From the NCBI GenBank assembly GCA_030562195.1, contig CM060202.1:8246001-8310000 (forward strand): 64,000 nt of DNA, in the 5' to 3' direction. The translations under genes were made by a program, and so were the position numbers. The stretch is from Nipponacmea schrenckii. Lineage: Eukaryota; Mollusca; Gastropoda; Lottiidae. This document shows, piece after piece, positions 9,072 to 36,125 of the stretch. Every line of letters starts with the position of its first letter. The first letter of the stretch is position 1. A model generated the notes under the pieces. That model searched no databases. It was not told where the DNA came from and saw only the letters and a list, made by a program, of their open reading frames with translations.

Positions 9072-10490
9072 CTATCACTCAAACGATCATTAGCTTTGCT
9101 GAAAAAATGGCCATCCGGACTTTTACATCTAAAAAAAGTGAAATCTCAGTTATCTTCATGGTTGTAAAATAAATATCATATTCAAAACACATCATATAAT
9201 ATTTATCATATCATACTTTTCTCAGGCAAATTCATTCTTGCCAAGGGACATAATCAACCATTATCATATCAAGTGCCATTTTAGCTTAGAGAGTATAGTT
9301 AGTGATCGTTTGGAGATTAGTTGAATATAACCCGATGTCAAAATGGAGGCATGTAAAAAAAGTTAAAATTCATGAAACCGAATTGTGGTGGAATGATGTT
9401 TGGGATGAAAATCAGATGCAAAAATGAAATGTTTGAAAAGGAGGTGTATGTATTGTGGTTATGAATAGAACTAGCCAACAGAGAAAGGATATTTTTGTGG
9501 AAGTTTCTTGCTTAAAATAGAATAGAAGTATTTTCGTGATGGTATTTTTGGAGAAGATTATTTATATGAAGAAAGCTTAAGAGTGATGCAAATGTATTTT
9601 GCCTATTATTCAGATATGTCTATACAGCTGTAGAGTGCTGAACAATTGTACTGTGATTTCCATCTCTAAAGTGCCTTATGATAACAATGTATGTGTAAAC
9701 TTGATGTCGAAGTGGGCCTGGTAGCCTATGGTTCTATGCAAAAATCATCTTAAAACCAGAAGGAAATTCCCTGATAACAAAATTACATTTAGAGCCCCAG
9801 CAATATTAATAACTTTTTCAAATAAAGCGACTTTTAGGTCATGAATTTCCATGAATATTTTTGATGGGTTGCCTATGTTCAGTTTACATTTTAAGCACTT
9901 AGTATTATTGCTTGTGAATTTTACCCCCTAAGATTCAACGATCACCCTATACTATTGACCATATTATAATTGTCTCATTTGAAACCTAGTCTGACTTAAA
10001 AACCACTTATGTTTCTTTAAAAGTCCACAGGTCATATCCTGTACTTACCATAGAAACCATGAACATCAGCTACAGAGCTCTATACACCAGTTCTGAAAGA
10101 GCATCATACAAAAGCTACGACTTGAACACAATAAAACCCTTACAAATCAGAATAAACCAATTCTGTTTTGTTTTTTGGTTGTATAGTGTCTGTCATATTG
10201 ACTTAAGATACTGCATTGCGGCAATATTTTACTATTGTGTTGTCAGATCTGGTGTATAGAGGCCTAGAGATGCATTCTATGTGTCTCTCAAAACCATATA
10301 TTTTATATAGAGATCAATAGTATACCATGCCTTTAATTTATTTCCTATGTATTATTTACTAAATATGGCATAAGTAATGACTTTAGGTACATTTAATTCA
10401 ATATTCATTTTGAGCAATATCTTTGAATGTTTTTCATATTAGTTGGTTCTTCCTATTTAATATTTTCAATAAAAATTTTGTACCTCTTGA
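9072..10490 (+). other. 3' UTR region of the Kelch-like gene
   Basis: No coding sequence is seen after the stop. Candidate polyadenylation signals AATAAA lie near 9169, near 9821 and at 10468-10473, the last followed by a T-rich stretch. The true end is not determinable by eye, so the span is the longest plausible UTR. Confidence 0.45.
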
Positions 10491-13365: not shown

Positions 13366-14399
13366 TGATACTGATAGTCAGATGAATCAGTAGTCATTTG
13401 ATTAAAGAATACAACAATCAAGGATCAGTAACGTAAATCTTCTAGATGATAAGAAAATTGACATCCAGCTGTACTAAATAAATACTTAGTAACCAGTTGG
13501 TTAAATTTAACTTAGTAACCCAACTGCCTTAAGAATACAATAAAAGTTCTGATAGTGATGTTTGTGGTAAATCATTTAAAGATATCGACGTAAAGTAGTT
13601 GAGGGGAAACAACTCTTGTTAATCCTTAAGCTGAAGACAAGATTTTTTCTGTTGCAACATCTAGTGTAAATTGTCGGCTTATTTACCATCTGTTTCCATG
13701 TAAAATCACGAAATTCAACCTTCTATAACTTTTTCCAGAAATCTCGTTGAAATCTTTCCAATATGTCACATGAAAGCCTGGCCGATACTTGGTTTCTTTA
13801 CAAAAATTTAATATATCAAGATTGTGCATTTTCAGACATTAAATTTTTAGTCTAGACAAAAAAAGTAGTCAATAAACGAGCATGAAAAAACCCCAGAGGA
13901 ATGGAGAGAGGATTTCTTAACACAGAACACTTTTATACAATGAGTAAAATATTTTCGTAAACTTTGGCAGATATTTGAAAATTGCAAAAATGTATTAGTG
14001 TTTGAGGACTTCTTGTGAAACGTTATGCAGATCGAAAATATTTCAAGTTTCATTTTGCTTAATAACAGCCTTGTGGCTTTATAACTTTCTAAATTGAGAT
14101 TTATTTACATTTTAGCACCCATTTTAGTGCTGAAGCTTGCATATTTTGGGAGATAAAAATATGTTTGGATGTGTATACCGGTACATAGTTATTGTGGATA
14201 TTCCCAAGCAAAGTTTGCAATCAGCTACCATATATTTGGGAATTAAAATTTTTTTTCGATATAACCCTTGCTGCAATCGTTTCATCAAATGTTTTAAATT
14301 TTGTTTGTTATTGTAACAGTACGTTCGCATTGCACAAAAGGGTCAACACTATTTACCGAATAGTAATCAAGACAAAAACTGAAAGTCACCCTAACTAAT

Positions 14400-14458
14400 G
14401 AAATGTACTCACTATGTTTTCACCATTGAGAGTCAGTTTGCTTTGTTTATAGCAACAG
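14400..14458 (+). ncRNA. Possible first exon of the repeat lncRNA (donor side)
   Basis: A strong donor, AGCAACAG|GTAAGTCG, lies at 14459, with the next good acceptor at 15096. The 5' end is unknown and no clear TATA box or initiator was found, so the start given is arbitrary. Confidence 0.35.
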
Positions 14459-15096
14459 GTAAGTCGACTTTTCTAAATCTTTGAAGTATTGAATTCCCAT
14501 GCTCATTTTAACATTAACATATCTCAGCTGGGAACTTAAGATTCTGTTTTCTATATAAAGAAAAAAGCCCCAGCAAGGAATATGAATAATAAAATAAACA
14601 TGGAGGTCTGTGGAAAAGGGTGACGCTCTGTGACATTTCTACCCACACCCCATCAAGTAAAAAAAATAATATCATAGATACGCCATTATCGTCGCTACTA
14701 ATTTAAGTAAAAAAAATGTACTTCTGATGAGAGAGTTTCCAAAATCAAAAGACCATTACTACTGATTGAAAATTCTGTTCCCCGCAATTGATTGGCGATC
14801 AAAATTTCAGTTTTGTAAGGTATTTTTACAGCCGTTTTCCCTTTAAACAATAATTTATGTTAATAATTAATGTTTTCTTTATAATAATTCTATAAAAGTA
14901 GATATGTGAATATAAATACTTTGGGTATCAATTTTTTCACTTTTTTGTGCTTGATGATACAAATTGAACCAGTGGTTGTTGTTCCATAATATGATGCGTT
15001 GTAATTCTTAATTAACATTTAAATAAAATAATAATTCATAATATATGATATATTCACATCTTCTGATGCATACTGATGCATGTTTTTGTCTTTCAG

Positions 15097-15169
15097 ATCA
15101 GGGTGACCAATAGCAGATTTTACTATTGCGTTAATACACTATAATGGATGGGATATTATCCTAGTTGAG
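15097..15169 (+). ncRNA. Candidate exon 2 of the repeat lncRNA
   Basis: The acceptor TTTTTGTCTTTCAG ends at 15096 and the donor TTGAG|GTTAGT lies at 15170. The exon contains a perfect 6-bp hairpin, CAATAG...CTATTG with a 9-nt loop (about 15108-15128), and a second small stem GGAT...ATCC. This exon is not part of the repeated cassette. Confidence 0.5.
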
Positions 15170-15673: not shown

Positions 15674-18600
15674 GGTTTCAAGTACAGTAGCTTGTCTTTA
15701 GCTACGGACAACTTCAGATATGGTGTGCAACCTAAGTTTTGGAGGTAGTTCACAAGGAGCAAAATTATCGCGTTTTCGGGTTGGGCTCACGTGTAGTTTA
15801 GTTGTGGCAGCCTGTGGGCTACCTTGTTAGGGCCACTTAGGTTGCACACGGCCATATTATGTCCACCCAGCCTCTCTTGGAACAAATGAAGGTCAGTTAT
15901 GATAATATTTAATTATACTTATTATTTGAAGACCATTAGACATGAGTCTCCACAATCTGAACAGTTCATAAAACAAATAAAATATACAATAGATACATAA
16001 ATACATAATATAATTTATATATGCAATATATATTTGAAATAATATGAAATACATATAAGCTAGGCATAAAATACATAGGAAATATATAAAGTTAGATCTA
16101 GATATTAAATAGATGTTAGATATATATAAACTATACATAAAATATACATAAAATAGACCTGATAAAACAAATATGAATATAAAAACACGTTAAATACAAT
16201 ATTAAATAGATATATTACATATATAATAACACAAATTAAAAATAAAATACACAATCATAAAATAAACATGGAATACAATTCAATAAAAAAAATGGGCATA
16301 CAATAAATATGTAATAGATACGACATAAATAAAATACAAAGACAACAGATATATTACATATCAAGGAAATATAAAATACATATATTATAAATATAAAATA
16401 CCTATTAGATAGATATGACATTACATATGAAATAAATATAAAATGTATATAAAATAAACATTAAATACAAATTAAATATACACAAAATAAATATACAATA
16501 GATATCGAATATGTGAGGTGGCCTCCTAATATTGACCATAAGTTATAAATAAAATACAAAGACAACAGATATATTACATATCAAAGAAATATAAAATACA
16601 TATAAAATACATATAAAATAAATATAAAATACCTATTAGATAGATATGGCATTACATATGAAATAAATATAAAATGTATATAAAACTTCATAAAATACAA
16701 ATTAAATACACACAAAATAAATACATGTATACACATAAGTATACGATAGAAAGCAAATATGAGGTGGCCTCAGAATATTGACCATAATTCATTAAGAATA
16801 TCTTATTTGTAGATTTTCATTTACAAACCATTAATTTCATTTCCTAACAGTCAGAAACATGTTGACTTTCTTTCTTGTTGTGCTAGTAATACTTATGTTA
16901 CTTTTGATTCAGTAGTCCAATATTCTAATCCATTTGAAATAAAGTCTTTTTGCGGCTAATTTGGTCAGTCATTAGTCGTATTCAAATCCTCCATATAGAC
17001 AGAATCACTATATTGTTTCTGAATGAGCATTAAATTAAACTGACGGATCAATGTTAAGATAAGAAACTCTCATTCACCCTTATTTGATCAAGATGAGGCC
17101 TCTCGGTCAGCGCAATTTGGAAAATAAAGGTTGTTATATAGAGAGGAATTTCCCTCTATTTTCCATAAATCATAGACAATGAAATGTCAAGTATAGTGTC
17201 TGGATATTTTCTAACTTAGTTTTAGAAAAATAGCCTCTGGAAATGGCTATGTGGAACCATCTTAATTTTTATGCTCTCCCTTTGTCGAAATCGAGATAGA
17301 AATCAACGAGTTTCAGACAACATAGTGTATAGGACACACGCAAATATATAGTATATTTTGTATACATAAATATGAAATTTGAAATAAATATATCAAATAT
17401 TCAATTACAAAAAAATTTCACCATTAAATTTTTTAAATATTTCTGATTTTAGGTGTAAACAGATAGAGCTTCATTATATAGGAATAGAGTGCTTATTGTG
17501 TGGCATCGAAGCTCCAGTCGTAAGTTTAAAATTAATGATATTTTAACAATTTGAGGTTGACGAAATTAGGCCCTTGTTCTTCAATGGTCTTACCTGGTGT
17601 CAAAAACTATCTTCCAAAATCTCTGTATAAACCAATAAATTCACAAAACTAAGTAAAAATCCAATAAAATAATTTTGAAACACTTTATTATTTTAATGTC
17701 TTTATCGTCTTATATAGAGCTATGTTTTAATCAACTCCAACTTATGAATACATTGTATTCATACAATAATTGATCAAGTTGAAGACTTTTTTTATTATTC
17801 TAAGAGTAAATATCCTGTTATGGCATATCATGCATATAATGTCTCTTACATGCTATTTGACAAGGACCAGCTGATAGTAAATTTCCTAGGCGAACCTATG
17901 TATCTAAACCTACGATTTTAAGATTGTATATAATTATAATATTTATTTTCGTATATAAATTTGTCTTTTTCTTATTTATTCATTTCAAACTTAATGTTTT
18001 AACTTGAAAAATTCAAAATATTAGCAAATATATTTTCTTGAGAATGAGTAAAGTTATAATTTTGTTTGTGATTGTGTACCTCATAAAATATTATCATTTT
18101 CAGTCTTTGGAAAATATATATAAAAAAGCATCTGTAAAGTCAGGAGTTTTGAAAATATTGTATTGCAACGTGGGTATTGAAATGTGTTGCTGTTTTATTA
18201 AATTCTGAAATGTGCAGGTCCCTTATTATGTAGATTAATTACATTTTTAGGTTAGAAAGGGTAAATCGTCTGGTAATTTACCTACCCGCCATAGCACTGC
18301 CACAATAGGAGTAATCTGGGGTCATGGCCTGTATGACTCTACAGATCCTCCTATTCACAGATGAAGCACAGATGAAGTGGCGCGCGCCAACAGATGAAGA
18401 ACAGATGAAGAACAGATGAAGAAGTTGGGCGATTTCTCCGCCCATTTCAGGTAAATTGATCTTCGAACTTTTTAGACAGACTGTAGCTCATTTAGTTTGA
18501 ATGTTGGAATATTGACGTAATTTGCTTTCCATCAAGCACATGATACTAAATTGATTGTCATTTGAGTTGTGCTCATTTCTGTAAACAAATTGAAGCTCCG

Positions 18601-18846
18601 TCAGCATGCGTATTGAAAATTAAATGAAGAAAAAACAAGTAATAAATCAAGAATTAGTGACATTTACTGTAATAAACTTTTTGATTCATAATTACTTGAT
18701 AAATAATTATAAGGAATGAATTGAATTTAAATATTTCTTGTCATTTGTGTTCATTTCAGCCGTCAGAAGTCAGCGGGAACTCGATAGCGGTCTTTACTAT
18801 TGGGTTTGACATACACCACGCACAGTTAGATGATCAACGTAGCACG
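15674..18846 (+). ncRNA. Cassette unit 1 (most diverged): exons D1, A1, B1, C1
   Basis: D1 15674-15891, A1 17453-17519, B1 18251-18450, C1 18760-18846. D1 keeps the three stems P1 GTTTCAAG/CTTGGAAC, P2 GTAGCT/AGCTAC and P3 GGACA/TGTCC, with about 95 nt of extra inverted-repeat sequence inside P3. A1 keeps GAGCTTC/GAAGCTC and the inner GTGC/GCAT, and unlike the later copies has a GT donor. B1 has ATCTG/CAGAT where the other copies have GTCTG/CAGAC, a strong terminal hairpin TGGGCG/CGCCCA, and the palindrome TGGCGCGCGCCA. This unit looks like the ancestral form. Confidence 0.7.
15950..16760. repeat. AT-rich low-complexity repeat in the D1-A1 intron
   Basis: Degenerate ATAAAATACATATAAAATA-type sequence. 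A longer unit of about 240 bp appears twice, ending in GTGGCCTCCTAATATTGACC near 16517 and GTGGCCTCAGAATATTGACC near 16763. Confidence 0.8.
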
Positions 18847-19372
18847 GTCAGTACATACTATCATACATTCCACTTTTGGTCAGCAATGTGAATCGGTCCG
18901 TAAATATTATAGAATGCATGATTCTTATGGTTTTCTTTAATTTTGAAGAGGGTTTTTAGCTTGTAAACTTTTTGGAAGGACCGATAGAGTTGTGCCAAAT
19001 TATTCGTTAAACATCAAAAACATGAAAATGTATTATGGCTTTGTTGAAACTGGTGATTGCTACAGCCACATTTGTTTGGAGTTATTGATGATTATTTATG
19101 TTCCTGCTAATGCAATTAAAGTGATTTGTTCTATTCTGATTTTCAGTCCGATATTTTCAGTTTTGTAAATCTACTTAAATGTTACTGCATAGCCATTGCA
19201 AAGACCTTCATAGTAGCTTTTATAGTGACGTTAATTATACTGGGCATTTCTACAATTATATTTGACTGAAATTTAGAATGATGCACAATAGAAAAAAGCA
19301 CACATTTACATGTTAGAAAACATCCTCACAATCTCTGAAATATTGACAGCATGATTCGTTAAATTAATGTAC

Positions 19373-19455
19373 AGTAGAACCTGCATTCAGAGACCACTCA
19401 AGGGAATATTCAAAAACGGTCGCTGAGTGAAGGTGGCCTCTTAAGAGAGGAACTG
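19373..19455. repeat. Possible transposon end (pogo/Tigger-like phrase)
   Basis: ACAGTAGAACCTGCATTCAG followed by AGACCACTC resembles the ends of pogo/Tigger-type elements, and GAGTGAAGGTGGCCTCTTAAG follows. I could not find the other end. Confidence 0.35.
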
Positions 19456-19861
19456 CAAGACCATTTCGTTTTGACGTTTTGGAAATCATGGGATCTTACT
19501 TTTATTCATACATGTATAGTTTCTACTGCTTTTGCATGCTATCTCCTATCTACCGACGGGATACTCTATTTTGTCGTATTTTATTTTCTATAAGATACCA
19601 AAGTTCTCACAGTTATTATCGTTTTCAAAGTCAAAATTCTCTACCTTAAATCAATAAGATTTCCTTCTTTACTTGCATTTTAATTGCCCGGTAACACGCT
19701 TTATTCCATTTTCACCTGATTAATATGTTTTTATGACAACATCCGGTATACCCTACTTTCGCTTTCTGATCAAATTTAAGGTAGTCTAAATTTTACCAAA
19801 AAAGAACTATTGAAGCCTTTACAGTACTTGTCAATTGAAATTTCTGTTGTTTCTCATCCAG

Positions 19862-21257
19862 GGTTCCAAGAACAAAGTAGCTGGTCTTTAGCTATAAAGG
19901 GACATTTAAACTTGAAGGTCAATAAAGTTATGGTGGAGCACAAATGTCCTATAGGTTAGTCTTGGAACGAAGCTAAGGTAAGGGTATTTAACATATGTCA
20001 TGTATAATGATTTAGCAATAATTGAAACCAAATTGACAATACAAGAACTGTAAATATCATTTTAAATGAAAAGTATGTAAAGTTTTCAGTATCAAAAGTG
20101 TTGTTTATTATGCCTGAAAGTATAACTATGTTTCAAAAGCAGAAAACATACATGTTTGTTTAAAATTTATCAGATGTTAACAAGAAGGTTATACATTGTA
20201 AATGATACTTTTATTATTATACTTACTTTTTTAACTACTAGTACCTATTTTGAAAGATATTCTGTTTGATTAAGCAAATATGCTTCAACTTTTTAGATAA
20301 TGAAAATTATGCATACTTCTTACATACATAAATGAACAAATATGTTGAAGACAATGTGTGTCATATTTGTTTAGAGAACTATCTGATTTGTCCCTGCTTT
20401 CTTTATGTATGGTTTTCCATTACTTATTGTAACTCATTACTTTTCTACATATTGCTAGACTTGTTGTGTTTTACTTCTCTTGATTACACTACCAGTATAG
20501 GCATATTTAACGTTGAATTAATAAATGTTAGACATAGTATATCCATATATCTTGTGTTTCTTTACCTTATAAACAGTTATCCGTTATGTTAAATTTTTGT
20601 AATTTTAGGTGTAAAAAGAGAGCTTCACTTTAAAGTGCTTATGGTGTGGCACAGAAGCTCTAAAGGCAAGTGGACTTTATTACTAAATGTTAATCTGAAC
20701 TCTGGCTATTTAAACTCCTTGTGTCCCTTTTCAGGCTTAATAGACTTATCCTTGAATGGGTTAACAACATTGAAAATTTGTTGACAGCATCAGGTGGATT
20801 AAGTGGTTCATTAAAAAATTACATACTTTATATTTGTATGTTTATCTAGGTTACCCGCAATAGCACTGCCACAATAGGAGTGTTCTGGGATCATAGCCTG
20901 TATGACTCTTTAGACCTCCTATTCACAGATGAAGAGGAACAGATGAAGAACAGATGAAGAGGAACAGATGAAGAAATAGGGAGATTCCTCCACCCGTATT
21001 TTGTAAGATTTTCATACATCTTAAAGTTTTGAAATCAGAATACTAGTACCATGATGGCATTTTCAGTTGAGTGAATTTTCTGAAATGTACGTCGATTTGA
21101 AATAATTGTGCCCGATAAAAATGTTTGAAAAATATAATGGAAGTTTTATTGAATACAATATTTTTCTATTCTTTTAGCCGTCAGCGGGAACTCGATAGCC
21201 GTCTTTACTATTGAGTTTTGCATGCACCACATACAGTAAGATGATCAACATAGCACG
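19862..21257 (+). ncRNA. Cassette unit 2: exons D2, A2, B2, C2
   Basis: D2 19862-19977, A2 20609-20665, B2 20850-21002, C2 21178-21257. D2 pairs GTTCCAAGA/TCTTGGAAC (P1), GTAGCT/AGCTAT (P2, closed by G.U) and GGACATTT/AAATGTCC (P3), intermediate between unit 1 and units 3-7. A2 has a GC donor (AAAG|GCAAG). B2 lacks about 30 nt at its 5' end, exactly the stretch that forms the first B hairpin in all other copies. Confidence 0.72.
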
Positions 21258-22031
21258 GTCAGTACATATTAATTTTTGTCACCATGAGTTCAATGAGTTT
21301 ACATTAGTAAACCCACCATAAAAATTACGGAGACATAATTGAAAAAAAAATTCAAAATAAATTAAGTGCTTCAGTCATCCAGTCAATGAGATTGCAAATC
21401 AATCATTGCATTATTTAGAGAAAATATATGCCAAGTAATCCAAGTAATCCAAGTAATTGCAGAGTTAAGGGGGCAGTTTCCAAAATTGTTATTTTTAAGT
21501 TCATGTCAACCTTTATATAGTTTTGGTGTATAGATTCAATGGAAAAATACGTTTGCTTAAAACTGTCACTTAAATCAATTCCTGTATATTTTGATCTATA
21601 GTTTTTTGCTCATAACTTTGTGCTTGCTTACATGTCTACATTACGTTTCATTTTATGTGCGTTTGTACCAAATTAGCTAATTTTGAACTTAAGTATGTGC
21701 CATTTAAATATATAGATTCAATAGATATGATAGATATAATTTTACGAATTATTTTCACAAACTGATAATATACAACTTATAATTTCTATTTCATAATACT
21801 TAAATCACCTAATTGTTATGTAGAAAAACCCAAATTTAGTGTTATTATATTTGTATACTGGTTAATTAATTATTAATTATACTTTTTTATATATTTTTAC
21901 GTTGCATAAAGGTATATTATGTAATATATTTTTCTATGTTATACATGTATTTTAAAAACTTTTGTAACTATGGGTCATAGACCTATTTACTGTAAATAAG
22001 TTATTATTACATTACTTGTCTATTCTTCCAG

Positions 22032-23320
22032 GCTTCCAAGAACAAAAAGCTGGTCCTTAGCTTTAAAGGGACATTAAACTGGGAGGTCAATTGAATTATG
22101 GTGGAGCACAATGTCCTAAAGGTGATTCTTGGAAGGAAGCTAGGTAAGGATTATTATCTGGGATATGATTAGCTAAATATTAACACACTGTAAATATTTT
22201 AAATATTGACATGAAATGTTCGGGAACCTACAAACCAGAAACGAAAGTTGGGGTACTCCTAACCAATTACATCTGGGTCGATTGGAATAAAAAATTTCAC
22301 CACACTTTTATACTCGAACCAATATTCAGATCTCTGATTATCTGATCACCATTTATTCGACATAGCCATATATCTTGTTAAGACTCTTGTTAATTGTTTG
22401 CATTATGTATTTATTTGATCATTTTATAAGTTTCATATCCAGTGAAATAACTTGTTTATATTTGAAATTTTAGGTGTAAACAGATAGAGCTTCAATGATT
22501 TTTTTTATAAAAGTGCTTATGGTGTGGCACGGAAGCTCACAAGGCAAGTTTTATTTGATCTATAAATTTTCAAATTCTTTACTAATCTTATTGCTTTGTG
22601 AATCATGATTTATGTTTTCAAAAAGAAAAGAACGAAACCGGAATAATGTGAGTAAATTGTGACCCTACTGAGTTCTGAAATTTTTGACATTTCTCTATTT
22701 CCATGCTTTCTCAAGAAAAGACATAGTGAAGAATGTATTTTGATTTCAAATTTGTAACTAATAACTAAAAATTGTGTTATCAATAAAATAAAAAAATGTT
22801 ATGCCCCAAATGTGTTTGATCGTATGTTTTTGTATTTTGCAGGTCAGAAGGGGTAAATCGTCTGGTAATTTACCTACCCGCAATAGCACTGCCACAATAG
22901 GAGTAGTCTGTGATCATGGACTGTATGACTCGTCAGACCTCCTATTCACAGATGAAGAGGAACAGATGAAGAACAGATGAAGAGGAACAGATGAAGAACA
23001 GATGAAGAGGAACAGATGAAGAAATAGGGAGATTCCTCCACCCGTATTTTGTAAGATTTTCATACATCTTAATGTTTTGAAATCGGGGTACCATAATGCA
23101 TTTTCAGCTGTGTGCATTTTCTGAAGAAGATGCCGATTTCAAATAGTTGAGCCCAATAAACATTTAAAAAAAAAATATAACATAATATACATGTATATAT
23201 AGTATAATTGAACAAAATATTTTTCTCTTCTCCTTTTTAGCCGTCAGCGGGATCCCGATAGCCGTCTTTGCTCTTGGGTTTGGTATACACCACATACAGT
23301 AAGATGATCAACGTAGCACG
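22032..23320 (+). ncRNA. Cassette unit 3: exons D3, A3, B3, C3
   Basis: D3 22032-22143, A3 22474-22543, B3 22843-23050, C3 23241-23320. D3 pairs CTTCCAAGAA/TTCTTGGAAG (22033-22042 with 22126-22135), AAAGCT/AGCTTT (22046-22051 with 22059-22064) and GGACATT/AATGTCC (22069-22075 with 22110-22116). B3 pairs AATAGGAG+GTCTG with CAGAC+CTCCTATT (22896-22910 with 22934-22946). Introns and exons are almost identical to unit 5. Confidence 0.75.
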
Positions 23321-23740
23321 GTAAGTACATCAATTTCAGTCACAAGTTTAGTTCAATGAGTTTAATTGTAAACCCACCATCAAATTCAAGAATTTTGGAG
23401 TCATAAAATGGAAAAATAATTTAAAATGAATTAAGTGCTTCAGTCATCCAGTCATTGAGTTGGCAAATCACTCATGGTTAATCGAGAGATTACTGAGAAA
23501 ATAAATGCCATGTCATTGCAGAGTTAAGGGGGCAATTTCCAAAATTGTTATTTCTATGTTTTGTGTCAACCTTTCGAATGTTTTTGTGTATAGAATTAAT
23601 GGAAAAAAACGTTTGCTTAAAACTGTGAATTAAATCAATTCCTGTATATTTTGATCTATAGTTTCCATTACTTTTTGCTCATAATTTTGTCCTTGCCTAC
23701 TTTAGACATTACTTTTTACATTACTTGTCTATTCTTCCAG

Positions 23741-25003
23741 GCTTCCAAGAACAAAAAGCTGGTCCTTAGCTTTGAAGTGACATTAACCTAGGAGGTCAAT
23801 TGAATTATGGTGGAGCACAATGTCCTTAAGGCGATTCTTGGAAGGAAGCTAGGTAAGGATTATTATCTGGGATATGATTAGCTAAATATTAACACACTGT
23901 AAATATTTTGAATATTGACATGAAATGTTCGGGTACCTACAAACCAGAAACGAAAGTTGGGGTACTCCTAACCAATTACATCTGGGTCGATTGGAATATG
24001 AAAATTTCACCACACTTTTATACTCGAACCAATATTAAGATCACCATTTATTCGACATAGCCGTATATCTTGTTAAGATTCATGTTAATTGTTTATTTAT
24101 TTGATTATTTCATAAGTTTCATATCCAGTGAAATAACTTGTTTATATTTGAAATTTTAGGTGTAAACAGATAGAGCTTCAATGAATTTTTTTTTATAAAA
24201 GTGCTTATGGTGTGGCACGGAAGCTCACAAGGCAAGTTTTATTTGATCTATAAATTTTCAAATTCTCTACTAATCTTATTGCTATGTTAATCATGATTTA
24301 TGTTTTCAAAAAGAAAAAAAAAGAAACCGGAATTAATGTGAGTAACTTGTGAACTCTACTGAGTTCTGAAGTTTTTGACAATCCATTACTCTATTTTCCA
24401 TACCCTCTCAAGAGAAGACATAGTGAAGAATGTATTTTGATTTCAAATTTGTAACTGATAACTCAAAATTGTCTTATCAAAATAAATCAAGAAAAGTTAT
24501 GCCCCCAATGTGTTTGATCGTATGTTTTTGTATTTTGCAGGTCAGAAGGGGTAAATCGTCTGGTAATTTACCTACCCGCAATAGCACTGCCACGATAGGA
24601 GTAGTCTGTGATCATGAACTGTATGATTCGTCAGACCTCCTATTCACAGATGAAGAGGAACAGATGAAGAACAGATGAAGAGGAACAGATGAAGAACAGA
24701 TGAAGAGGAACAGATGAAGAAATGGGGAGATTCCTCCACCCGTATTTTGTAAGATTTTCATACATCTTAATGTTTTGAAATCAGGGTACCATAATGCATT
24801 TTCAGCTGTGTGCATTTTCTGAAGAAGATGCCGATTTCAAATAGTTGAGCTCAATAAACATTTTTTTTAAAACTATAACATAATATATAATTGAACAAAA
24901 TATTTTTCTCTTCTCCTTTTTAGCCGACAGCGGGAACCCGATAGCCGTCTTTGCTCTTGGGTTTGGTATACACAACATACAGTAAGATGATCAACGTAGC
25001 ACG
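23741..25003 (+). ncRNA. Cassette unit 4: exons D4, A4, B4, C4
   Basis: D4 23741-23852, A4 24160-24231, B4 24541-24748, C4 24924-25003. In D4 the base of P3 is weakened (GTGACATT against AATGTCCT), leaving six pairs; P1 and P2 are intact. B4 replaces the outer A-U pair of its long helix by G.U. Almost identical to unit 6. B4 has a short open frame (24541-24678, part of an 82-codon ORF), which I read as incidental. Confidence 0.75.
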
Positions 25004-25421
25004 GTAAGTACATCAATTTCAGTCACAAGTCTAGTTCAATGAGTTTAATTGTAAACCCACCATCAAATTCAAGAATTTTGGAGTCATAAATTGAAAAATA
25101 ATTTAAAATGAATTCAGTGCTTCAGTCATCCAGTCATTGAGTTGGCAAATCAATCATCGTTTATCCAGAGATTACTGTGGAAAATATATTCCAAGTCATT
25201 GCAGATTTAAGGGGGCATTTTTCAAAATTGTTATTTCTAAGTTTGTGTCACCCTTTAGATAGTTTTTCTGTATAGAATTAATGGAAAAACACGTTTGCTT
25301 CAAATTGTCAATTAAATCAATTCATGCACATTTTGATCTATAGTTTCCATTACTTTTTGCTCATAATGTTGTCCTTGCATAGTGTAGACATAACTTTTAC
25401 ATTACTTGTCTATTCTTCCAG

Positions 25422-26703
25422 GCTTCCAAGAACAAAAAGCTGGTCCTTAGCTTTAAAGGGACATTAAACTGGGAGGTCAATTGAATTATGGTGGAGCACA
25501 ATGTCCTAAAGGTGATTCTTGGAAGGAAGCTAGGTAAGGATTATTATCTGGGATATGATTAGCTAAATATTAACACACTGTAAATATTTAAAATATTGAC
25601 ATGAAATGTTCGGGAACCTACAAACCAGAAACGAAAGTTGGGGTACTCCTAACCAATTACATCTGGGTCGATTGGAATAAAAAATTTCACCACACTTTTA
25701 TACTCGAACCAATATTCAGATCTCTGATTATCTGATCACCATTTATTCGACATAGCCATATATCTTGTTAAGACTCTTGTTAATTGTTTGCATTATGTAT
25801 TTATTTGATCATTTTATAAGTTTCATATCCAGTGAAATAACTTGTTTATATTTGAAATTTTAGGTGTAAACAGATAGAGCTTCAATGATTTTTTTTATAA
25901 AAGTGCTTATGGTGTGGCACGGAAGCTCACAAGGCAAGTTTTATTTGATCTATAAATTTTCAAATTCTTTACTAATCTTATTGCTTTGTAAATCATGATT
26001 TATGTTTTCAAAAGAACGAAACCGGGAATAATGTGAGTAAATTGTGACCCTACTGAGTTCTGAAATGTTTGACATTTCTCTATTTCCATGCTTTCTCAAG
26101 AAAAGACATAGTGAAGAATGTATTTTGATTTCAAATTTGTAACTAATAACTCAAAATTGTGTTATCAATAAAATAAGAAAATGTTATGCCCCAAATGTGT
26201 TTGATCGTATGTTTTTGTATTTTGCAGGTCAGAAGGGGTAAATCGTCTGGTAATTTACCTACCCGCAATAGCACTGCCACAATAGGAGTAGTCTGTGATC
26301 ATGGACTGTATGACTCGTCAGACCTCCTATTCACAGATGAAGAGGAACAGATGAAGAACAGATGAAGAGGAACAGATGAAGAACAGATGAAGAGGAACAG
26401 ATGAAGAAATGGGGAGATTCCTCCACCCGTATTTTGTAAGATTTTCATACATCTTAATGTTTTGAAATCAGGGTACCATAATGCATTTTCAGCTGTGTGC
26501 ATTTTCTGAAGAAGATGCCGATTTCAAATAGTTGAGCCCAATAAACATTTAAAAAAATATAACATAATATACATGTATATAAAGTATAATTGAACAAAAT
26601 ATTTTTCTCTTCTCCTTTTTAGCCGTCAGCGGGATCCCGATAGCCGTCTTTTGCTCTTGGGTTTGGTATACACCACATACAGTAAGATGATCAACGTAGC
26701 ACG
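25422..26703 (+). ncRNA. Cassette unit 5: exons D5, A5, B5, C5
   Basis: D5 25422-25533, A5 25864-25933, B5 26228-26435, C5 26623-26703. Near duplicate of unit 3, introns included. C5 has one extra T compared with C3 (81 against 80 nt), another change incompatible with a conserved reading frame. Confidence 0.75.
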
Positions 26704-27126
26704 GTAAGTACATCAATTTCAGTCACAAGTTTAGTTCAATGGGATTATACTATAAACCAACCCTCAAAAAATTCAAGAATTTTGGAGTCATAAATTGAAA
26801 TATAATTTAAAATGAATTAAGTGCTTCAGTCATCCAGTCATTGAGTTGGCAAATCACTCATGGTTAATCGAGAGATTACTGAGAAAATAAATGCCATGTC
26901 ATTGAAGAGTTAAGGGGGCAATTTCCAAAATTGTTATTTCTATGTTTTGTGTCAACCTTTCGATTGTTTTTGTGTATAGAATTAATGCAAAAACACGTTT
27001 GCTTAAAACTGTGAATTAAATCAATTCCTGTATATTTTGATCTATAGTTTCCATTACTTTTTGCTCATAATTTTGTCCTTGCCTACTTTAGACATTACTT
27101 TTTACATTACTTGTCTATTCTTCCAG

Positions 27127-28294
27127 GCTTCCAAGAACAAAAAGCTGGTCCTTAGCTTTGAAGTGACATTAACCTAGGAGGTCAATTGAATTATGGTGGA
27201 GCACAATGTCCTTAAGGCGATTCTTGGAAGGAAGCTAGGTAAGGATTATTATCTGGGATATGATTAGCTAAATATTAACACACTGTAAATATTTTGAATA
27301 TTGACATGAAATGTTCGGGTACCTACAAACCAGAAACGAAAGTTGGGGTACTCCTAACCAATTACATCTGGGTCGATTGGAATATGAAAATTTCACCACA
27401 CTTTTATACTCGAACCAATATTAAGATCACCATTTATTCGACATAGCCGTATATCTTGTTAAGATTCATGTTAATTGTTTATTTATTTGATCATTTCATA
27501 AGTTTCATATCCAGTGAAATAACTTGTTTATATTTGAAATTTTAGGTGTAAACAGATAGAGCTTCAATGAATTTTTTTTATAAAAGTGCTTATGGTGTGG
27601 CACGGAAGCTCACAAGGCAAGTTTTATTTGATCTATAAATTTTCAAATTCTCTACTAATCTTATTGCTTTGTGAATCATGATTTATGTTTTTGACAATCC
27701 ATTTCTCTATTTCCCATGCCCTCTCAAGAGAAGACATAGTGAAGAATGTATTTTGATTTCAAATTTGTAACTGATAACTCAAAATTGTGTTATCAAAATA
27801 AATCAAGAAAAGTTATGCCCCCAATGTGTTTGATCGTATGTTTTTGTATTTTGCAGGTCAGAAGGGGTAAATCGTCTGGTAATTTACCTACCCGCAATAG
27901 CACTGCCACGATAGGAGTAGTCTGTGATCATGAACTGTATGACTCGTCAGACCTCCTATTCACAGATGAAGAGGAACAGATGAAGAACAGATGAAGAGGA
28001 ACAGATGAAGAAATGGGGAGATTCCTCCACCCGTATTTTGTAAGATTTTCATACATCTTAATGTTTTGAAATCAGGGTACCATAATGCATTTTCAGCTGT
28101 GTGCATTTTCTGAAGAAGATGCCGATTTCAAATAGTTGAGCTCAATAAACATTTTTTTTAAAACTATAACATAATATATAATTGAACAAAATATTTTTCT
28201 CTTCTCCTTTTTAGCCGTCAGCGGGAACCCGATAGCCGTCTTTGCTCTTGGGTTTGGTATACACAACATACAGTAAGATGATCAACGTAGCACG
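27127..28294 (+). ncRNA. Cassette unit 6: exons D6, A6, B6, C6
   Basis: D6 27127-27238, A6 27546-27616, B6 27857-28039, C6 28215-28294. Near duplicate of unit 4, with a roughly 0.1-kb deletion in the A-B intron (around 27680) and two fewer CAGATGAAG repeats in B6. Confidence 0.75.
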
Positions 28295-28710
28295 GTAAGT
28301 ACATCAATTTCAGTCACAAGTCTAGTTCAATGAGTTTAATTGTAAACCCACCATCAAATTCAAGAATTTTGGAGTCATAAATTGAAAAATAATTTAAAAT
28401 GAATTCAGTGCTTCAGTCATCCAGTCATTGAGTTGGCAAATCAATCATCGTTTATCCAGAGATTACTGTGGAAAATATATTCCAAGTCATTGCAGATTTA
28501 AGGGGGCATTTTTCAAAATTGTTATTTCTAAGTTTGTGTCACCCTTTAGATAGTTTTTCTGTATAGAATTAATAGAAACACGTTTGCTTCAAATTGTCAA
28601 TTAAATCAATTCATGTACATTTTGATCTATAGTTTCCATTACTTTTTGCTCATAATGTTGTCCTTGCATAGTGTAGACATAACTTTTACATTACTTGTCT
28701 ATTCTTCCAG

Positions 28711-29727
28711 GCTTCCAAGAACAAAAAGCTGGTCCTTAGCTTTAAAGGGACATTAAACTGGGAGGTCAATTGAATTATGGTGGAGCATAAATATCCTAAA
28801 GGCGATTCTTGGAAGGAAGCTAGGTAAGGATTATTATCTGGGATATGAAAAGCTAAATATCAACACACTGTAAATATTGACATTAAATTTTTCGGGAAAA
28901 TGCAAAACAGAAACCCCTAACCAATTACATCTAGGTCGATTGAAATGATAAGAAAATTTAACCATACTTTTACATTCCAATCAATATTTAGATCTCTGAT
29001 TATCTGATCACCATTTTCTCGATATAACAATACATCTTGTTAAGATTCATGTTAATTGTTTGAATTTATGTATTTATTTGATTATTTTATTAGTTTCGTA
29101 TCCATTGAATTAACTTGTTTATATTTGAAATTTTAGGTGTAAACAGATAGAGCTTCAATTAATTTTTTTATAGAAGTGCTTATGGTGTGGCACGGAAGCT
29201 CACAAGGCAAGTTTTATTTGATCTAAAAATCTTCAAATTCTTTTCTAATCTTATTGCTTTGTAAATCCTGATTTATGTGTTAAAAATAATTAAAAAAAAC
29301 GAAATTGGGTTAATGAGTAAATTGTGACCCTACTGAGTTCTGAAATTTTTGACTATCCTTTTCTTTATATTCCATGCCCTCTCAAGAAAGAATATAGTGA
29401 AGAATGTATTTTGATTTCAAATTTGTAACTGATAGCTCAAATTGTGTTATCAATAAATCAAGAAAATATTATGCCCCCTATGTGTTTTGCAGGTCAGAAG
29501 GGGTAAATCGTCTGGTAATTTACCTACCCGCAATAGCACTGCCACGATAGGAGTAGTCTGTGATCATGGACTGTATGACTCGTCAGACCTCCTATTCACA
29601 GATGAAGAACAGATGAAGAGGAACAGATGAAGGACAGATGAAGCGGCGCCTACAGATGATGACAAGACAAGAATGAAGAAAAGAGTGCTCAATAAGAATA
29701 ACCACGTCTGCAGACAAAAAGCCGCGG
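28711..29727 (+). ncRNA. Cassette unit 7 (last): exons D7, A7, B7, no C
   Basis: D7 28711-28823, A7 29137-29206, B7 29493-29727. D7 has one mismatch in P3 (AATATCC instead of AATGTCC). B7 starts like the others but after the CAGATGAAG repeats continues into unrelated sequence containing GGCGCC, and ends at the donor GCCGCGG|GTATGTT. A GC-rich palindrome after the CAGATGAAG stretch is shared only with B1, so the first and last B exons appear to be the outer, older borders of the array. Confidence 0.7.
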
Positions 29728-30136
29728 GTATGTTACCAGGAATATAGTTAAAATTTAGCAGTTGATGACCGAAATAAAAACTTTACATATTGTAGCTTTA
29801 TATTGGAACGGAAGGGAATTTGATAGACTGGCATTTTTAGAAATTGACAAGGCCAAGTTGCTTCCATGCACGTTCCCAATGTATATGAATATGGATTCTG
29901 GGAAGATTCATTAAGATTTACAGGAATGCTCAACTTTTATACTAAATAAGAACATAGTTTATACGCAAATTCATTGAATACGTTAAGGTTCGACAGGAAT
30001 AATCAATAAATTCCAATGTGCATGACAGTTCAAACATATTCCATTAATAATAGGAAGTTGTTATCAAATAAGCTGTTATGTTGGCTAAAGATATGGGTTG
30101 CGGCTCATTTACAAAAACATTTTTTTTATATTTCAG

Positions 30137-30470
30137 CTGAAGAGCTCAGAAGAAGATATTGCTTCTGCATTGATTTGATTTGTCTGCATTGATTTGATTT
30201 TTCTTCATTGATTTGGTGGTTCTGCATTAATTTGATTTTTCTGCATTATTGGTTCCACTTACTGCTTCCAGACACATGTTTTTACTGGTTCCCTCTTTGA
30301 CTTTCTACTTTCTTTGACTTTAATATAATAAGTCATCTTTACTCAGTTGTCTAAAGACCCAGCTGTAAATGGGCATGGATAATCTGGGAAGTTTGACTGA
30401 GGATCAGCAGTTACACAGGATCTTCTGAACCTTAGCTGTTATCCTAAATAAATGTTTTTTTTTTATCTCT
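30137..30470 (+). ncRNA. Candidate 3' exon of the repeat lncRNA
   Basis: The acceptor TTTTTATATTTCAG ends at 30136, 409 nt after the B7 donor. The exon contains four imperfect copies of CTGCATTGATTTGATTT (30166-30250) and an AATAAA at 30447-30452 followed by a T run, consistent with a polyadenylated end near 30470. No open frame. Confidence 0.5.
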
Positions 30471-30769: not shown

Positions 30770-30955
30770 AGGTCAGATTTGGTAGTTTTGGTCAAAGTTT
30801 GTGTATGAGGTGTTTGGTCGAAGATTGTGGTCGAGGTCAAGGGTCATACATGGTGGTCGAGGTCAAAGGTCATAAATGGTTGCCAAGGTCAAAGTTCATA
30901 AACAGAGGTCAAGGTCAAATATTATAAATGGTGGTCAAGGTTCAGATTTGGTTTT
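30770..30955. repeat. GGTCAAGGTCA-type tandem repeat
   Basis: About seven degenerate copies of a 20-28-bp unit around GGTCAAAGGTCATAAATGGT. AGGTCA half-sites occur repeatedly, but a simple repeat explains them. Confidence 0.7.
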
Positions 30956-30996: not shown

Positions 30997-31049
30997 GGAA
31001 ATGGTGGTATGAATGAAAAGAGGCATGCTTACAATTAAAGAATCTACAG
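30997..31049 (+). ncRNA. Possible alternative 3' exon
   Basis: Acceptor AAATTTTCTTTTCAG ends at 30996 and donor ATCTACAG|GTATGG lies at 31050. Supported only by splice-site appearance. Confidence 0.3.
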
Positions 31050-32131: not shown

Positions 32132-32400
32132 ATTGTAAGGGATTCTGTTACTTTATGGCACCAGGTAAGTTCACTGATGAATATATACTTATATTGACCA
32201 TTCTTGAGAACTAAAATTTTATGTTCATGCTAAGACGATTTATTCCTTTAATCTATTTTTTCTCGTGTTTTTTTTATTACAGATATTGATAACTCTGTTA
32301 GTTTAAGGGTAGGCAGGGAGTTGTCCTGCAGGGAGTTCATCGTCCCTGTCTTGCCGAGATGGAATGCTCTGTGGACCAAGGATTACTTTTTCTTACAAGG
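32132..32400 (+). ncRNA. Possible 3' exons 32132-32164 and 32283-32400
   Basis: A 33-nt block ends in CACCAG|GTAAGT. A 118-nt block between TTTTTTATTACAG and CAAGG|GTATGT contains the hairpin CAGGGA/TCCCTG (32329-32334 with 32343-32348). Both lack an open frame. They could belong to a longer isoform of the repeat lncRNA or to another transcript. Confidence 0.35.
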
Positions 32401-32762: not shown

Positions 32763-33470
32763 GTATTGGATATTAGTGGAGGGTTGTTGATTAAGTTTTG
32801 TGACAATCAGGCATTTTTCACAACTAATACAATGAATTAGCGTTTGACGAAATTCTAGCTCTCAGTTATAGTGTTACTTTTCATGCGTACCATATTGTAT
32901 CAATCATAATATTATGTTAATTTAGTGATTATATTATAACCTTGTATCACTGGCTAAAATGGATTGTCATTTATCATAATGATGTCATTCTTTCTATTTC
33001 AAGTATTATTATTATTATTCAAATTCTTCTTAAAAGTGAATGAAGATTATCAATATTTGTAAATGTGTAAGCAAAAGAACTCATTTGCAGAAAAAAAAAT
33101 GAAACAAAGCATCTAGATTTACATTGTACTGATTGAGATAATACAATATGTTATTGGTGATAAATATTTGCAGAAGAATAATTATGTGATATGTTGCAAG
33201 TTAATGACTGTGATGCTATCAAATGTAAAGAAAAAAATGATTTCAAATCACATGAATTTTGTCTTTGTAAATATTCTCTTGATTTGACAAATTTTGTTAG
33301 TGATCAAAGTATAAACTAATGCAGATTGGATATTCTTGGTGATCTTAAATTGATAATAATTGGTGGTTGAAGTAATTTGCGTTTGTAACATAATTATGTA
33401 CGTTTTTCTTTTGTTTTTATGTGTGTGTATGTATACTTTTAAATATAAAAATAAATATTAGTATTATATC
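32763..33470 (+). ncRNA. Possible terminal exon of the long isoform
   Basis: The acceptor ATTTCTTTTTCAG ends at 32762. AATAAA at 33449-33454 follows a T-rich and TGTG-rich stretch. There is no coding frame. Confidence 0.35.
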
Positions 33471-34130
33471 ACGTTTGTATTTACATTGTTTGGTAATTTA
33501 TTTGCTTAGTATCAGATCTCAAAAGTAATATGGACAACTGAAATTGAAAAGAAAGTTTGGAACTGAAGGGGCATGAAACTAAATATTGTGAGAAATCTAA
33601 ATTTCTACGAGAAAGTTTTGCATCCCCCACCTCGATCCATGCTACGAGATTTTACATAAGACATCACACGCTCATTAAACCATTCCATTACTGTATAAAC
33701 ATACAATAAGAAATATTCATGCACGTGCAAAATATTACATGTATAGGTCACATGAGATCAAATCACGTGATACAACAAACAAATACAGGAAATATTTCAA
33801 GATGACCGGAAAAAATTTACTTCTTCGAGGTAAATAGACTATATGACTCATTTATTGCTTTATCATGGATTGGAATCTTTTTTAAGGACGAAATTTGTAA
33901 TCATTTCATACCAAAATTATCTAATATTTTCGGCTTGTGGATTCCAATTAGAATAGTTATATCTACAAGTCAATTTTCTTACCTCGCAATCACACAAAAT
34001 ATATATTACATAATACTGTATCTTTACGTTATTCATATTCACACACAATTCGGAACTGTTATAAACAAATACAGAATGGGTTCGTTGTCATTACACACAC
34101 ATTTTTCAGCACACCACATTTAGATACAGT
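33470..34130. other. Intergenic DNA, no gene seen
   Basis: AT-rich; two CACGTG sites (near 33723 and 33766) and a short ATG frame ending in a donor-like GTAAAT near 33832. No downstream partner exon in phase was found. Confidence 0.4.
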
Positions 34131-35220: not shown

Positions 35221-35689
35221 CTACCCCACCCCCCTTCTAAATGACTGCTTACCTTATCCTCATGTATCAAGACTTTGTGGAGACGCTGATAGAATGCAAA
35301 ATGTCTAGTTTGGGTTGTTTGTGATGGAACTCTCCCTTCCCCGTAAACAAAATCAAGAACCGAAAAGGCGAACTATGGCTTTTTAAACTGTATTTTGGAT
35401 TTTGGTGATATGTCTGGAGTTAAATGATAAATTTACAAATCAAACAAAATAGAGGATACATTTGTTTCATTGTTCCCTAGCGGCACATCTGCTTGTAAAT
35501 TAAAACACCAAAATAAGTACTGATTCAGTTCCAAGACTTCGAAAACATTAATTAAAATTCATACATTTTATAAATATCCAAAATGAATTTTCAATTGAAT
35601 GCCATCAATAGTTTTCGAAGGACACTTTCCCACGGAAATATCTGTCTTCAAAATACGGTTAAGTGTTTTAAGCGACATGCGAAACAATC

Positions 35690-36125
35690 CCCAAATATTG
35701 ATTACATTACTCGGGTTTTCTTGTACCTTTTCCCCGAAACTCTGCCCTGATTGGACAAGCGTTTTAATATACCAGTGGAAATAACCCAAAATCCCGATTA
35801 CATCATTCGGGTTTTCTCGGGCATTTTCCCCGCAACTTTGTCCTGAATGGACAAGCGTTTTAATCCACTTGTGGAAAATACCAAAAATCCCGATTACTTC
35901 ACCCTGGTTTTCTCGGACATTTTCTACAAAACCTCTCTCCTGAATGGACAAGCGTTTAAACCCACTCGTGGAAAATACCAAAAATCCCGATTACTTCACC
36001 CTGGTTTTCTCGGACATTTTCTACAAAACCTCTCTCCTGAATGGACAAGCGTTTAAACCCACTCGTGGAAAATACCAAAAATCCCGATTACATCACTCGG
36101 GTTTTCACGGACCTTTTCCGCGGAT
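35690..36125. repeat. 97-bp satellite, array 1
   Basis: Four to five tandem units. The phrase CCTGAATGGACAAGCG recurs at 35842, 35939 and 36036 (period 97), and a diverged unit precedes them at about 35746. Units contain CCAAAAATCCCGATTAC. A 137-codon minus-strand frame across it is a by-product of the repeat, whose period is not a multiple of three. Confidence 0.88.

Follow-up and report, generated by a model that had tools for sequence, protein, structure and literature searches.

Tandem four-exon cassettes in a probable multi-locus family of structured non-coding RNA genes of a gastropod

The stretch of 64,000 nucleotides analysed here (the window) probably contains a gene that belongs to a multi-locus family of structured, largely non-coding RNA genes, spliced and polyadenylated, of a gastropod, most likely a limpet. 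As the best explanation has it, each gene would follow the order E1 - C0 - D1 - A1 - B1 - C1 - (D-A-B-C)n - D-A-B - 3' exons. Sequence comparison shows the exons with their splice sites, at 18 read loci and more conserved than the introns, as well as helices that remain paired in D, a three-way junction, and in B, a long hairpin.

Regarding the layout of the array (Table 1), positions 15674-29727 contain seven copies each of D, A and B and six of C, and the seven consecutive D-A-B-C units claimed in a preliminary description of this DNA are thus present with a single block missing, 27 out of 28: unit 7 lacks C, and the 3' part of its B differs from the other B copies. C0, a diverged C exon, lies upstream of the array and outside this count. 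D1 measures 218 nt vs 112-116 nt for the other D copies, and the four exons of unit 3 add up to 470 nt, the module length given earlier. Each block also lies between its own acceptor and donor, as had been described, with AG at the start and GT at the end, or GC at exon A (6/7 copies). The array has the multi-exon structure with canonical splice sites of a spliced lncRNA gene, and its 27 exons, which fall into four repeat families, have the FIRRE-type property of many exons copied from a local repeat.

Table 1. Exons of the gene in the window, with the evidence for each
Feature	Position	Strand	Evidence
E1, first exon and probable promoter-proximal stretch (5' border not fixed)	14339..14458	+	donor GTAAGT at 14459; 83% conserved in C5 locus; 25 genomic matches
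C0, diverged C exon before unit 1	15097..15169	+	AG/GT borders; 85% conserved in C5 locus
D1, long D form; third arm a long hairpin	15674..15891	+	fold -76.5 kcal/mol, z -3.4; conserved in 6 loci
A1, GT donor	17453..17519	+	exon match, splice borders
B1	18251..18450	+	exon match, splice borders
C1	18760..18846	+	exon match, splice borders
D2	19862..19977	+	exon match, splice borders
A2, GC donor	20609..20665	+	exon match, splice borders
B2, without first hairpin (as one B in 13/18 loci)	20850..21002	+	splice borders; comparison of 18 loci
C2	21178..21257	+	exon match, splice borders
D3	22032..22143	+	exon match, splice borders
A3	22474..22543	+	exon match, splice borders
B3	22843..23050	+	exon match, splice borders
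C3	23241..23320	+	exon match, splice borders
D4	23741..23852	+	exon match, splice borders
A4	24160..24231	+	exon match, splice borders
B4	24541..24748	+	exon match, splice borders
C4	24924..25003	+	exon match, splice borders
D5	25422..25533	+	exon match, splice borders
A5	25864..25933	+	exon match, splice borders
B5	26228..26435	+	exon match, splice borders
C5 (exon)	26623..26703	+	exon match, splice borders
D6	27127..27238	+	exon match, splice borders
A6	27546..27616	+	exon match, splice borders
B6	27857..28039	+	exon match, splice borders
C6	28215..28294	+	exon match, splice borders
D7	28711..28823	+	exon match, splice borders
A7	29137..29206	+	exon match, splice borders
B7, final cassette exon, own 3' part, donor GTATGT	29493..29727	+	splice borders; comparison with other loci
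Probable 3' exon, possibly alternative last exon; AATAAA at 30447	30137..30460	+	conserved blocks vs 10 other loci; borders inferred from sequence
Probable 3' exon	30997..31049	+	conserved block; AG/GT inferred from sequence
Probable 3' exon	32283..32400	+	surrounding stretch conserved in many loci; borders from sequence
Probable last exon; AATAAA at 33450	32763..33498	+	alignments of several loci stop near 33498; borders inferred

As for the introns, the claim that they were duplicated together with the blocks holds for units 3-7, where unit 3 matches unit 5, and unit 4 unit 6, at 97-99%. A blastn comparison (E 0.01) of the oldest unit, unit 1, with the younger unit 3 gave matches only at A, B, C and their splice signals. 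Between units 2 and 3, the D, B and C exons are 90.7% identical vs 64.1% for the introns, 151 mixed-label columns, exon A among them, being omitted. In the four comparisons involving unit 7 the exon excess was small or absent, largely because of the repeat tail of B; the pair 3/7 had 84.6% exon and 87.5% intron identity, and only the pair 5/7 reached P 0.027. Units 4 and 6 showed no exon excess over introns (P 0.74).

D-A-B-C chains occur at 18 read loci of the genome, the window included, and four other places match the exons as well (C249, C13:17.29 Mb and two in C3, labels that denote loci and not exons). The E1-type 5' exon lies 5' of the array at 15 of the 18 read loci, and the 3' end with its AATAAA-type signal is kept in the loci compared there. 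Across eight dispersed loci, identity is 94.6% in exons (2.8% gaps) and 87.3% in introns (20% gaps), and the exons are the more conserved part in all 28 pairs; a multi-locus depth profile gave no usable exon signal because the introns align too. Membership in a family of at least 18 such loci had been overlooked in the preliminary description.

The loci are scattered across many contigs of chromosome size and the distances among the eight are similar, which would suit a large non-autonomous mobile element with exon-like parts spliced from its transcript. This origin is rather improbable: the ends of the gene in the window, where the terminal inverted repeats of a DNA transposon were sought, have no inverted match longer than 12 nt, no ORF of at least 120 aa occurs within that gene, homology continues beyond the poly(A) signal in several loci, and the dispersed copies retain exon constraint.

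No scored copy has a broken splice site: exact AG precedes 59/59 D, 73/73 A, 56/56 B and 51/51 C exons, and exact GT/GC follows 61/61 D, 37/37 A, 35/35 B and 64/64 C exons. Only hits whose profile match reaches the respective exon end entered these counts, which express intactness and not location, some neighbouring offsets also being AG or GT/GC in most copies. A GC donor at exon A was found in 62 of 77 copies genome-wide by a windowed scan, which searched an interval for AG, took the best nearby donor, and is less trustworthy than the exact-offset count; in the same scan the B donors were irregular (5 none, 10 GTGCAC), an effect of the tail repeat and of the differing last B on the end of the profile.

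Regarding RNA structure, the sets comprised 63 of 67 D, 66 of 77 A and 57 of 64 C copies; for B, 3 of 79 copies had no anchor and were removed, as were identical copies and those crossing a boundary, leaving 65 rows. In the D helices 96.4% of cells are paired vs 93.9% in shuffles, with both-sided changes in 32 cells vs 8.8; the values for B are 97.4% vs 95.1% and 37 vs 14.6, and in both exons both measures exceed all 500 shuffles. One B pair reads CG 22, GU 20, AU 15 and UG 5 times across copies, and sliding helix partners by 1-3 columns leaves only 23-49% pairing. The nearly invariant A has 2 pairs with both-sided change vs 0.2 in shuffles (2/500), and C has no excess over shuffles on any structure measure. 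The earlier claim that stems survive is supported for D and B and less strongly for A, and C is neutral. However, the two measures least inflated by kinship, the number of pairs with both-sided change and the number of pair types, are not above shuffles for D (155/500 and 178/500) or for B (196/500 and 404/500), so a small number of old changes, passed on to many copies, may account for a large part of the covariation. In a held-out test, for which D1 was trimmed for alignment and its inner hairpin omitted, 17 pairs were broken vs 38.3 expected and 8 changes were compensatory vs 2.8.

Folding energy fell under z -2 in only 2 of 18 pieces, plus the full D1, and most exons were not separable from shuffles. 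In six loci the folding energy of D1 lies between -76 and -87 kcal/mol, a strength that a long-hairpin precursor of small RNAs might have, with D1 as the hairpin; since that arm is confined to the first D of the window and the other exons have short stems, such a precursor is extremely improbable.

According to the earlier description, no frame survives between copies. This is only roughly so: in the window all three frames carry stops in 7/7 D, 7/7 B, 5/7 A and 5/7 C copies (C0 counted), but across the genome each exon has a single frame in which stops are clearly rarer (copies with a stop: D frame 1, 25/63; A frame 1, 30/66; C frame 2, 26/57; B head, 18/65), stops occurring in the remaining frames in 51 of 66 copies or more. 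The low-stop frames can join in phase, the cassette ORF reaching 114 aa at one locus and exceeding 95% of shuffles in length at 4/18 loci, and in one frame of the B head entropy is highest at third positions and the synonymous share beats 55/60 column shuffles. In addition, homology to proteins, which the preliminary description counted against its reading, exists in part: the exons recur, in a mixture of frames, within 24 hypothetical proteins of Lottia gigantea (e.g., LOTGIDRAFT_175716, _175836 and _173933), of which 6 read C or C0, then D1, A and B in order. Their B is in frame 0 in 18/19 pieces and their C in frame 2 in 8/8.

Small fast-evolving proteins could account for the joined frames, the B head and the consistent Lottia frames, with an ORF per cassette that starts at an ATG in C, crosses D and A and reaches B (~85-114 aa), or in the first cassette, C0-D1-A1-B1. 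They are nonetheless unlikely. The pN/pS values of the low-stop frames (D 0.71, A 0.93, C 0.56, B 0.56) resemble those of stop-filled frames (D 0.71, A 0.70, C 0.72), exon lengths mix all phases, frames shift between copies, and even the B frame is stopped in the 18 copies noted above. The Lottia models split A between frame 1 (16) and frame 0 (9) and D1 between frame 1 (6) and frame 0 (5), where the D labels count from library copies with indels and some "frame 0" pieces start in frame 1 by eye (P0124). The Pfam relations of four cassette ORFs, and those of seven Lottia models out of the 24, were rejected, every match being below the curated cut-offs. In line with the earlier description, strong coding constraint is not seen, though the periodicity of the B head and the low-stop frames stand. 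The single conserved frame with low pN/pS of a protein-coding family was not found in these exons, and the assembled window transcript, with E1 run to 14461 and not 14458, has a longest ORF, outside E1, of 51 aa vs a shuffle median of 64.

The relics of joined frames, together with exon lengths in all phases and so frame-breaking indels, could also point to pseudogenes, that is, decaying copies of an old protein-coding gene with exons that were merely slow from the start. Decay of this kind is quite improbable given the exon excess in every pair of dispersed copies, the intact splice sites and the avoidance of stem breakage by substitutions in the held-out test.

Finally, tandem exon-intron units like those of SNHG14 could belong to a host gene with the introns as its functional part, encoding small nucleolar RNAs. 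The one candidate, a SNORD34 match at 15891-15967 that is weak and under the threshold (E 0.42), was rejected, the stretch being altered or deleted in five other loci; neither the window nor 14 loci gave a match at gathering score to any known Rfam family, box C/D and H/ACA snoRNAs included, and the introns are the less conserved part. A snoRNA host is accordingly very improbable.

Under the preferred reading of structured non-coding RNA genes, RNA polymerase II would transcribe the locus and intron removal would yield a mature RNA resembling a string of ~400-470-nt folded modules. Each module would comprise the D junction, the A stem with its nearly invariant UUAUGGUG-type loop, the B hairpin with a purine-rich (ACAGAUGAAGA)n spacer after it, and the C hairpin. 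The predicted role is that of a multivalent scaffold, through whose repeated modules one or more RNA-binding proteins would be bound in several copies; the GAAGA-rich spacer may recruit SR-type splicing factors, so that the exons are kept included. Cassette number would shift by unequal exchange, the two-cassette blocks 3-4 and 5-6 being a likely example in the window, and whole genes would spread by DNA-level duplication.

On sequence grounds we lean slightly towards the broader view that limpets possess an undescribed family of >20 dispersed lncRNA genes with tandem, ordered four-exon structured cassettes under RNA-level selection, conserved GC-AG introns and variable cassette number, a modular RNA scaffold arising via exon-cassette amplification. 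This would be a multi-gene repeat-exon family outside vertebrates, in which 57-66 distinct copies per exon make RNA structure testable within one genome and the growth, shrinkage and spread of cassette arrays can be followed. A literature search found no account of such RNAs in molluscs.

As for related systems, the Lottia gigantea hypothetical proteins have the same exons but are annotated as proteins, with A and D1 in two frames; the arrays described here suggest that these 24 annotated "proteins" represent parts of a family of non-coding genes. Repeated RNA modules, proposed to bind several protein copies, are also a feature of Xist, roX and other repeat-bearing scaffold RNAs; to our knowledge the repeats of these RNAs lie inside exons and form no multi-exon cassettes, whereas the snail repeats are whole multi-exon cassettes. 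We know of repeat-exon lncRNAs from single mammalian loci. The layout had been presented as unmatched, which does not hold in view of two of these. In FIRRE/Firre, the repeating RNA domain (RRD) accounts for 7/13 human and 11/23 mouse exons (PMC4820808); lncRNA exons are local repeats there as in the snail arrays, but one repeat exon recurs in FIRRE, whereas the snail genes have an ordered set of four different exons with helices at no fewer than 18 loci. SNHG14 likewise has an array of repeated non-coding exons, IPW-A/116HG (SNORD116) and IPW-G (SNORD115), around intronic genes (PMC4742849); its snoRNAs lie in introns and its IPW exons are without human-mouse conservation, whereas in the snail the exons are conserved and no snoRNA was found. 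In conclusion, tandemly repeated non-coding exons are already known from FIRRE and SNHG14, and the new variation is their organization as ordered four-exon cassettes in a multi-locus family.

As for the layout of the array (see the table below), the preliminary description had proposed seven consecutive cassettes of the exon types D, A, B and C, making up a structured lncRNA in which a multi-exon unit recurs; blastn with the unit exons and reading of the borders confirmed the order D-A-B-C, while the count held for D, A and B (seven each) and fell to six for C. The first D exon, D1, measures 218 nt versus 112-116 nt in the other D exons of the window, and exon A has a GC donor in six of its seven copies there. 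Units 3 and 5, and units 4 and 6, share 97-99% identity, which indicates that a two-cassette block was duplicated recently; exon and intron identity do not differ between units 4 and 6, and it is the older units, unlike these pairs, that are the real test of exon conservation. Between units 1 and 3, the blastn alignment is confined to A, B, C and their splice signals, and between units 2 and 3 identity is 90.7% in exons and 64.1% in introns; comparisons with unit 7 give little or no exon gain over introns, largely because of the repeat tail of B.

Features of the window, with neighbours and side observations
Feature	Position	Strand	Remarks
KLHL5 (kelch-like protein 5) exons	3730-9074	+	in pieces, upstream; best among the matches listed: Haliotis cracherodii, 90%
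First-exon block	14339-14492		donor at 14459
C0, diverged C exon	15097-15169	+	upstream of unit 1
Units 1-7	15674-29727	+	D-A-B-C cassettes
Tandem repeat, 11-nt unit	15966-16720		A-rich and degenerate; lies in the intron after D1
Run of eight (A/G)GGTCA half-sites	30770-30917		AGGTCAAAGGTCA among them; partly conserved at other loci; presumably akin to nuclear-receptor elements
3' part of the gene	to ~33498		
Open frame	35571-35990	-	140 codons, repetitive in look
ORF with zf-RVT domain	49133-49525	-	E 6.5e-8; probably a retrotransposon remnant
Exon-like peptide	59875-60129	+	may resemble a tetratricopeptide protein
Strong G-over-C stretch	60000-62000		skew 0.51; degenerate repeats like TTATAGATCTATGTAAGTTGGG

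The cassettes are dispersed in the genome. Searches of the 399-Mb assembly that contains the window returned at least 48 matches for exon B (best 40 of 106 candidates scored), at least 40 for exon A (best 40 of 45) and at least 40 for exon C (best 40 of 69), the last adding two places on contig C3 and one on C13. Seventeen further loci were read and annotated with exon profiles, giving 18 with the window; all 17 carry cassettes, in the order D-A-B-C everywhere bar two oddities, namely a D-A without B-C plus a stray piece of C (contig C8, 20.1 Mb) and an inverted piece of B (contig C10, 24.70 Mb). The array ends in A-B at 16 of the 18 loci; in the remaining two the sequence read stops before the array does. 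The pattern A-B-C-D-A-B-C-D-A-B-C-D-A-B occurs in eight of the 17 other loci (in one of them B is divided between two hits), and four more are compatible with it, their start missing; the window has seven cassettes and the C10 locus at 24.70 Mb eight. At 13 of the 18 loci a single B is without the first hairpin, and in 13 loci the D that comes first among the regular ones (D2 in the window) falls into one clade (support 100/99), which together argue that a four-cassette gene predates the spread and that longer arrays grew later. The sister of the window's gene is an inverted locus ~54 kb away (C13:8.19-8.21 Mb, 8190001-8206000), with a first exon 97% identical and 3' homology that stops near window position 30049. 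The loci C3:4.80-4.82 Mb and C3:34.43-34.44 Mb, separated by 29.6 Mb, have identically spaced first exons and C exons; they would reflect either very recent copying or a duplication introduced by the assembly.

Regarding conservation, exons of eight dispersed four-cassette loci have 94.6% mean identity with 2.8% gaps and introns 87.3% with 20% gaps, exons exceeding introns in 28 of 28 pairs. Among hits whose profile reaches the border, and with D ends taken at two neighbouring offsets, AG is intact at 239/239 exon starts (59 D, 73 A, 56 B, 51 C) and GT or GC at 197/197 exon ends (61 D, 37 A, 35 B, 64 C); the GC donor of exon A is retained in 62 of 77 copies. Such intact splice sites and exon conservation would not be expected of copies decaying freely since duplication.

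As for the gene ends, the first-exon block and its donor are conserved in the locus on contig C5, as are C0 and D1. All 25 candidates scored in the assembly matched this block; a match lies 5' of the array at 15 of the 18 read loci and was not found there at C10 10.97, C12 13.59 and C13 5.22 Mb, and four matches sit where no cassette exon was seen. Among the 25, the matches at C13:10.68, C6:5.09, C7:24.07 and C14:23.30 Mb, where no array was read, are weaker. The 3' part includes a conserved AATAAA-type signal and more exon-like blocks with predicted borders.

Exon D is predicted to fold as a three-way junction and B as a long hairpin, and because kinship alone can lift paired percentages and the covariation score above shuffles, their figures lend moderate support: in D (63 distinct copies), 96.4% of cells are paired versus 93.9% in shuffles and 23-47% with slid partners, with both-sided change in 32 cells versus 8.8; in B (65 copies), 97.4% versus 95.1% and 39-49%, with 37 cells versus 14.6 and one pair occurring in four types. 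Neither exon has an excess of pairs with both-sided change (D, 4 versus 3.1, reached in 155/500 shuffles; B, 3, 196/500) or of pair types (D, 20 further types, 178/500; B, 18, 404/500). Exon A is 98.4% paired in 66 copies, with both-sided change in two pairs and three cells (2/500 and 1/500 shuffles); exon C, 98.6% paired in 57 copies, is not above shuffles. When structures derived from units 3-7 only were applied to nine copies of units 1-2 and C0, 17 pairs were broken versus 38.3 expected (0/5000 as low) and eight were compensatory versus 2.8 (P 0.0044); taken by itself, C did not reach significance (P 0.23). Folding energies of the exons are mostly ordinary. By regex count, 10 of the 14 D2-type copies whose 5' run is the longer one have helix P3 extended by one pair on both sides, which probably goes back to a single inherited event. 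D1 retains the junction and has a long third arm at six loci, and its outer stem, read by eye, has A-U swapped for U-A at both C10 loci.

A coding role was weighed against these data. The longest ORF of the predicted window transcript, 51 aa, is under the shuffle median of 64, and exon lengths are distributed over all phases. Across the genome, however, each exon has a single frame in which stops are scarcer. Joined together, these frames can run from an ATG late in C across D and A and on into B, and an ORF exceeds the 95% shuffle level at 4 of 18 loci (up to 114 aa). In the low-stop frames, pN/pS is 0.71 for D, 0.93 for A, 0.56 for C and 0.56 for B; in the stop-filled frames of D, A and C it is 0.70-0.72. 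The head of B has some third-position excess, so the non-coding reading is most vulnerable at B. In a protein search, the 114-aa ORF matched nothing but hypothetical proteins from Lottia gigantea (6 of 8 candidates, E up to 10), and a profile built with them gave 24 matches (E up to 0.01) on at least 19 contigs, told apart by their length, all from Lottia; candidates were proteins of similar length, so the absence elsewhere weighs little. Mapped back, each of the 24 holds at least one cassette exon and six have the order C or C0, D1, A, B; A is in frame 1 (16) or 0 (9), D1 in 1 (6) or 0 (5), B in 0 (18) or 1 (1) and C in 2 (8). Gene finders have thus already come across these exons in a limpet and annotated them as proteins. 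KLHL5, the gene upstream in the window, places the source among the gastropods, and the Lottia hits make a limpet likely.

In conclusion, exons and splice sites are conserved across the 18 loci and the helices stay paired, and the window gene is fairly probably a member of a family of spliced, structured non-coding RNA genes built of tandem multi-exon cassettes. The cassette genes would be transcribed and spliced into a multimeric RNA, whose repeated modules might bind proteins multivalently; the best candidate sites are a motif common to the A loop and a D arm, found at 13 window places with up to two mismatches (0.93 expected, the places being copies of one another), and ACAGATGAAG, with 35 copies in the predicted transcript. 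The literature listings obtained included no description of a dispersed gene family built on an ordered, structured cassette of four exons, and the balance tips slightly towards an undescribed limpet family of dispersed lncRNA genes, with ordered four-exon structured cassettes under RNA-level selection; both estimates were lowered slightly, and three rival readings raised a little, because the pair and type counts of D and B stay within the range of shuffles. Published work has dealt with GC-AG introns in lncRNAs (PMC7242645). The layout itself has precedents in FIRRE (PMC4820808) and SNHG14 (PMC4742849), for both of which repeated non-coding exons are described.
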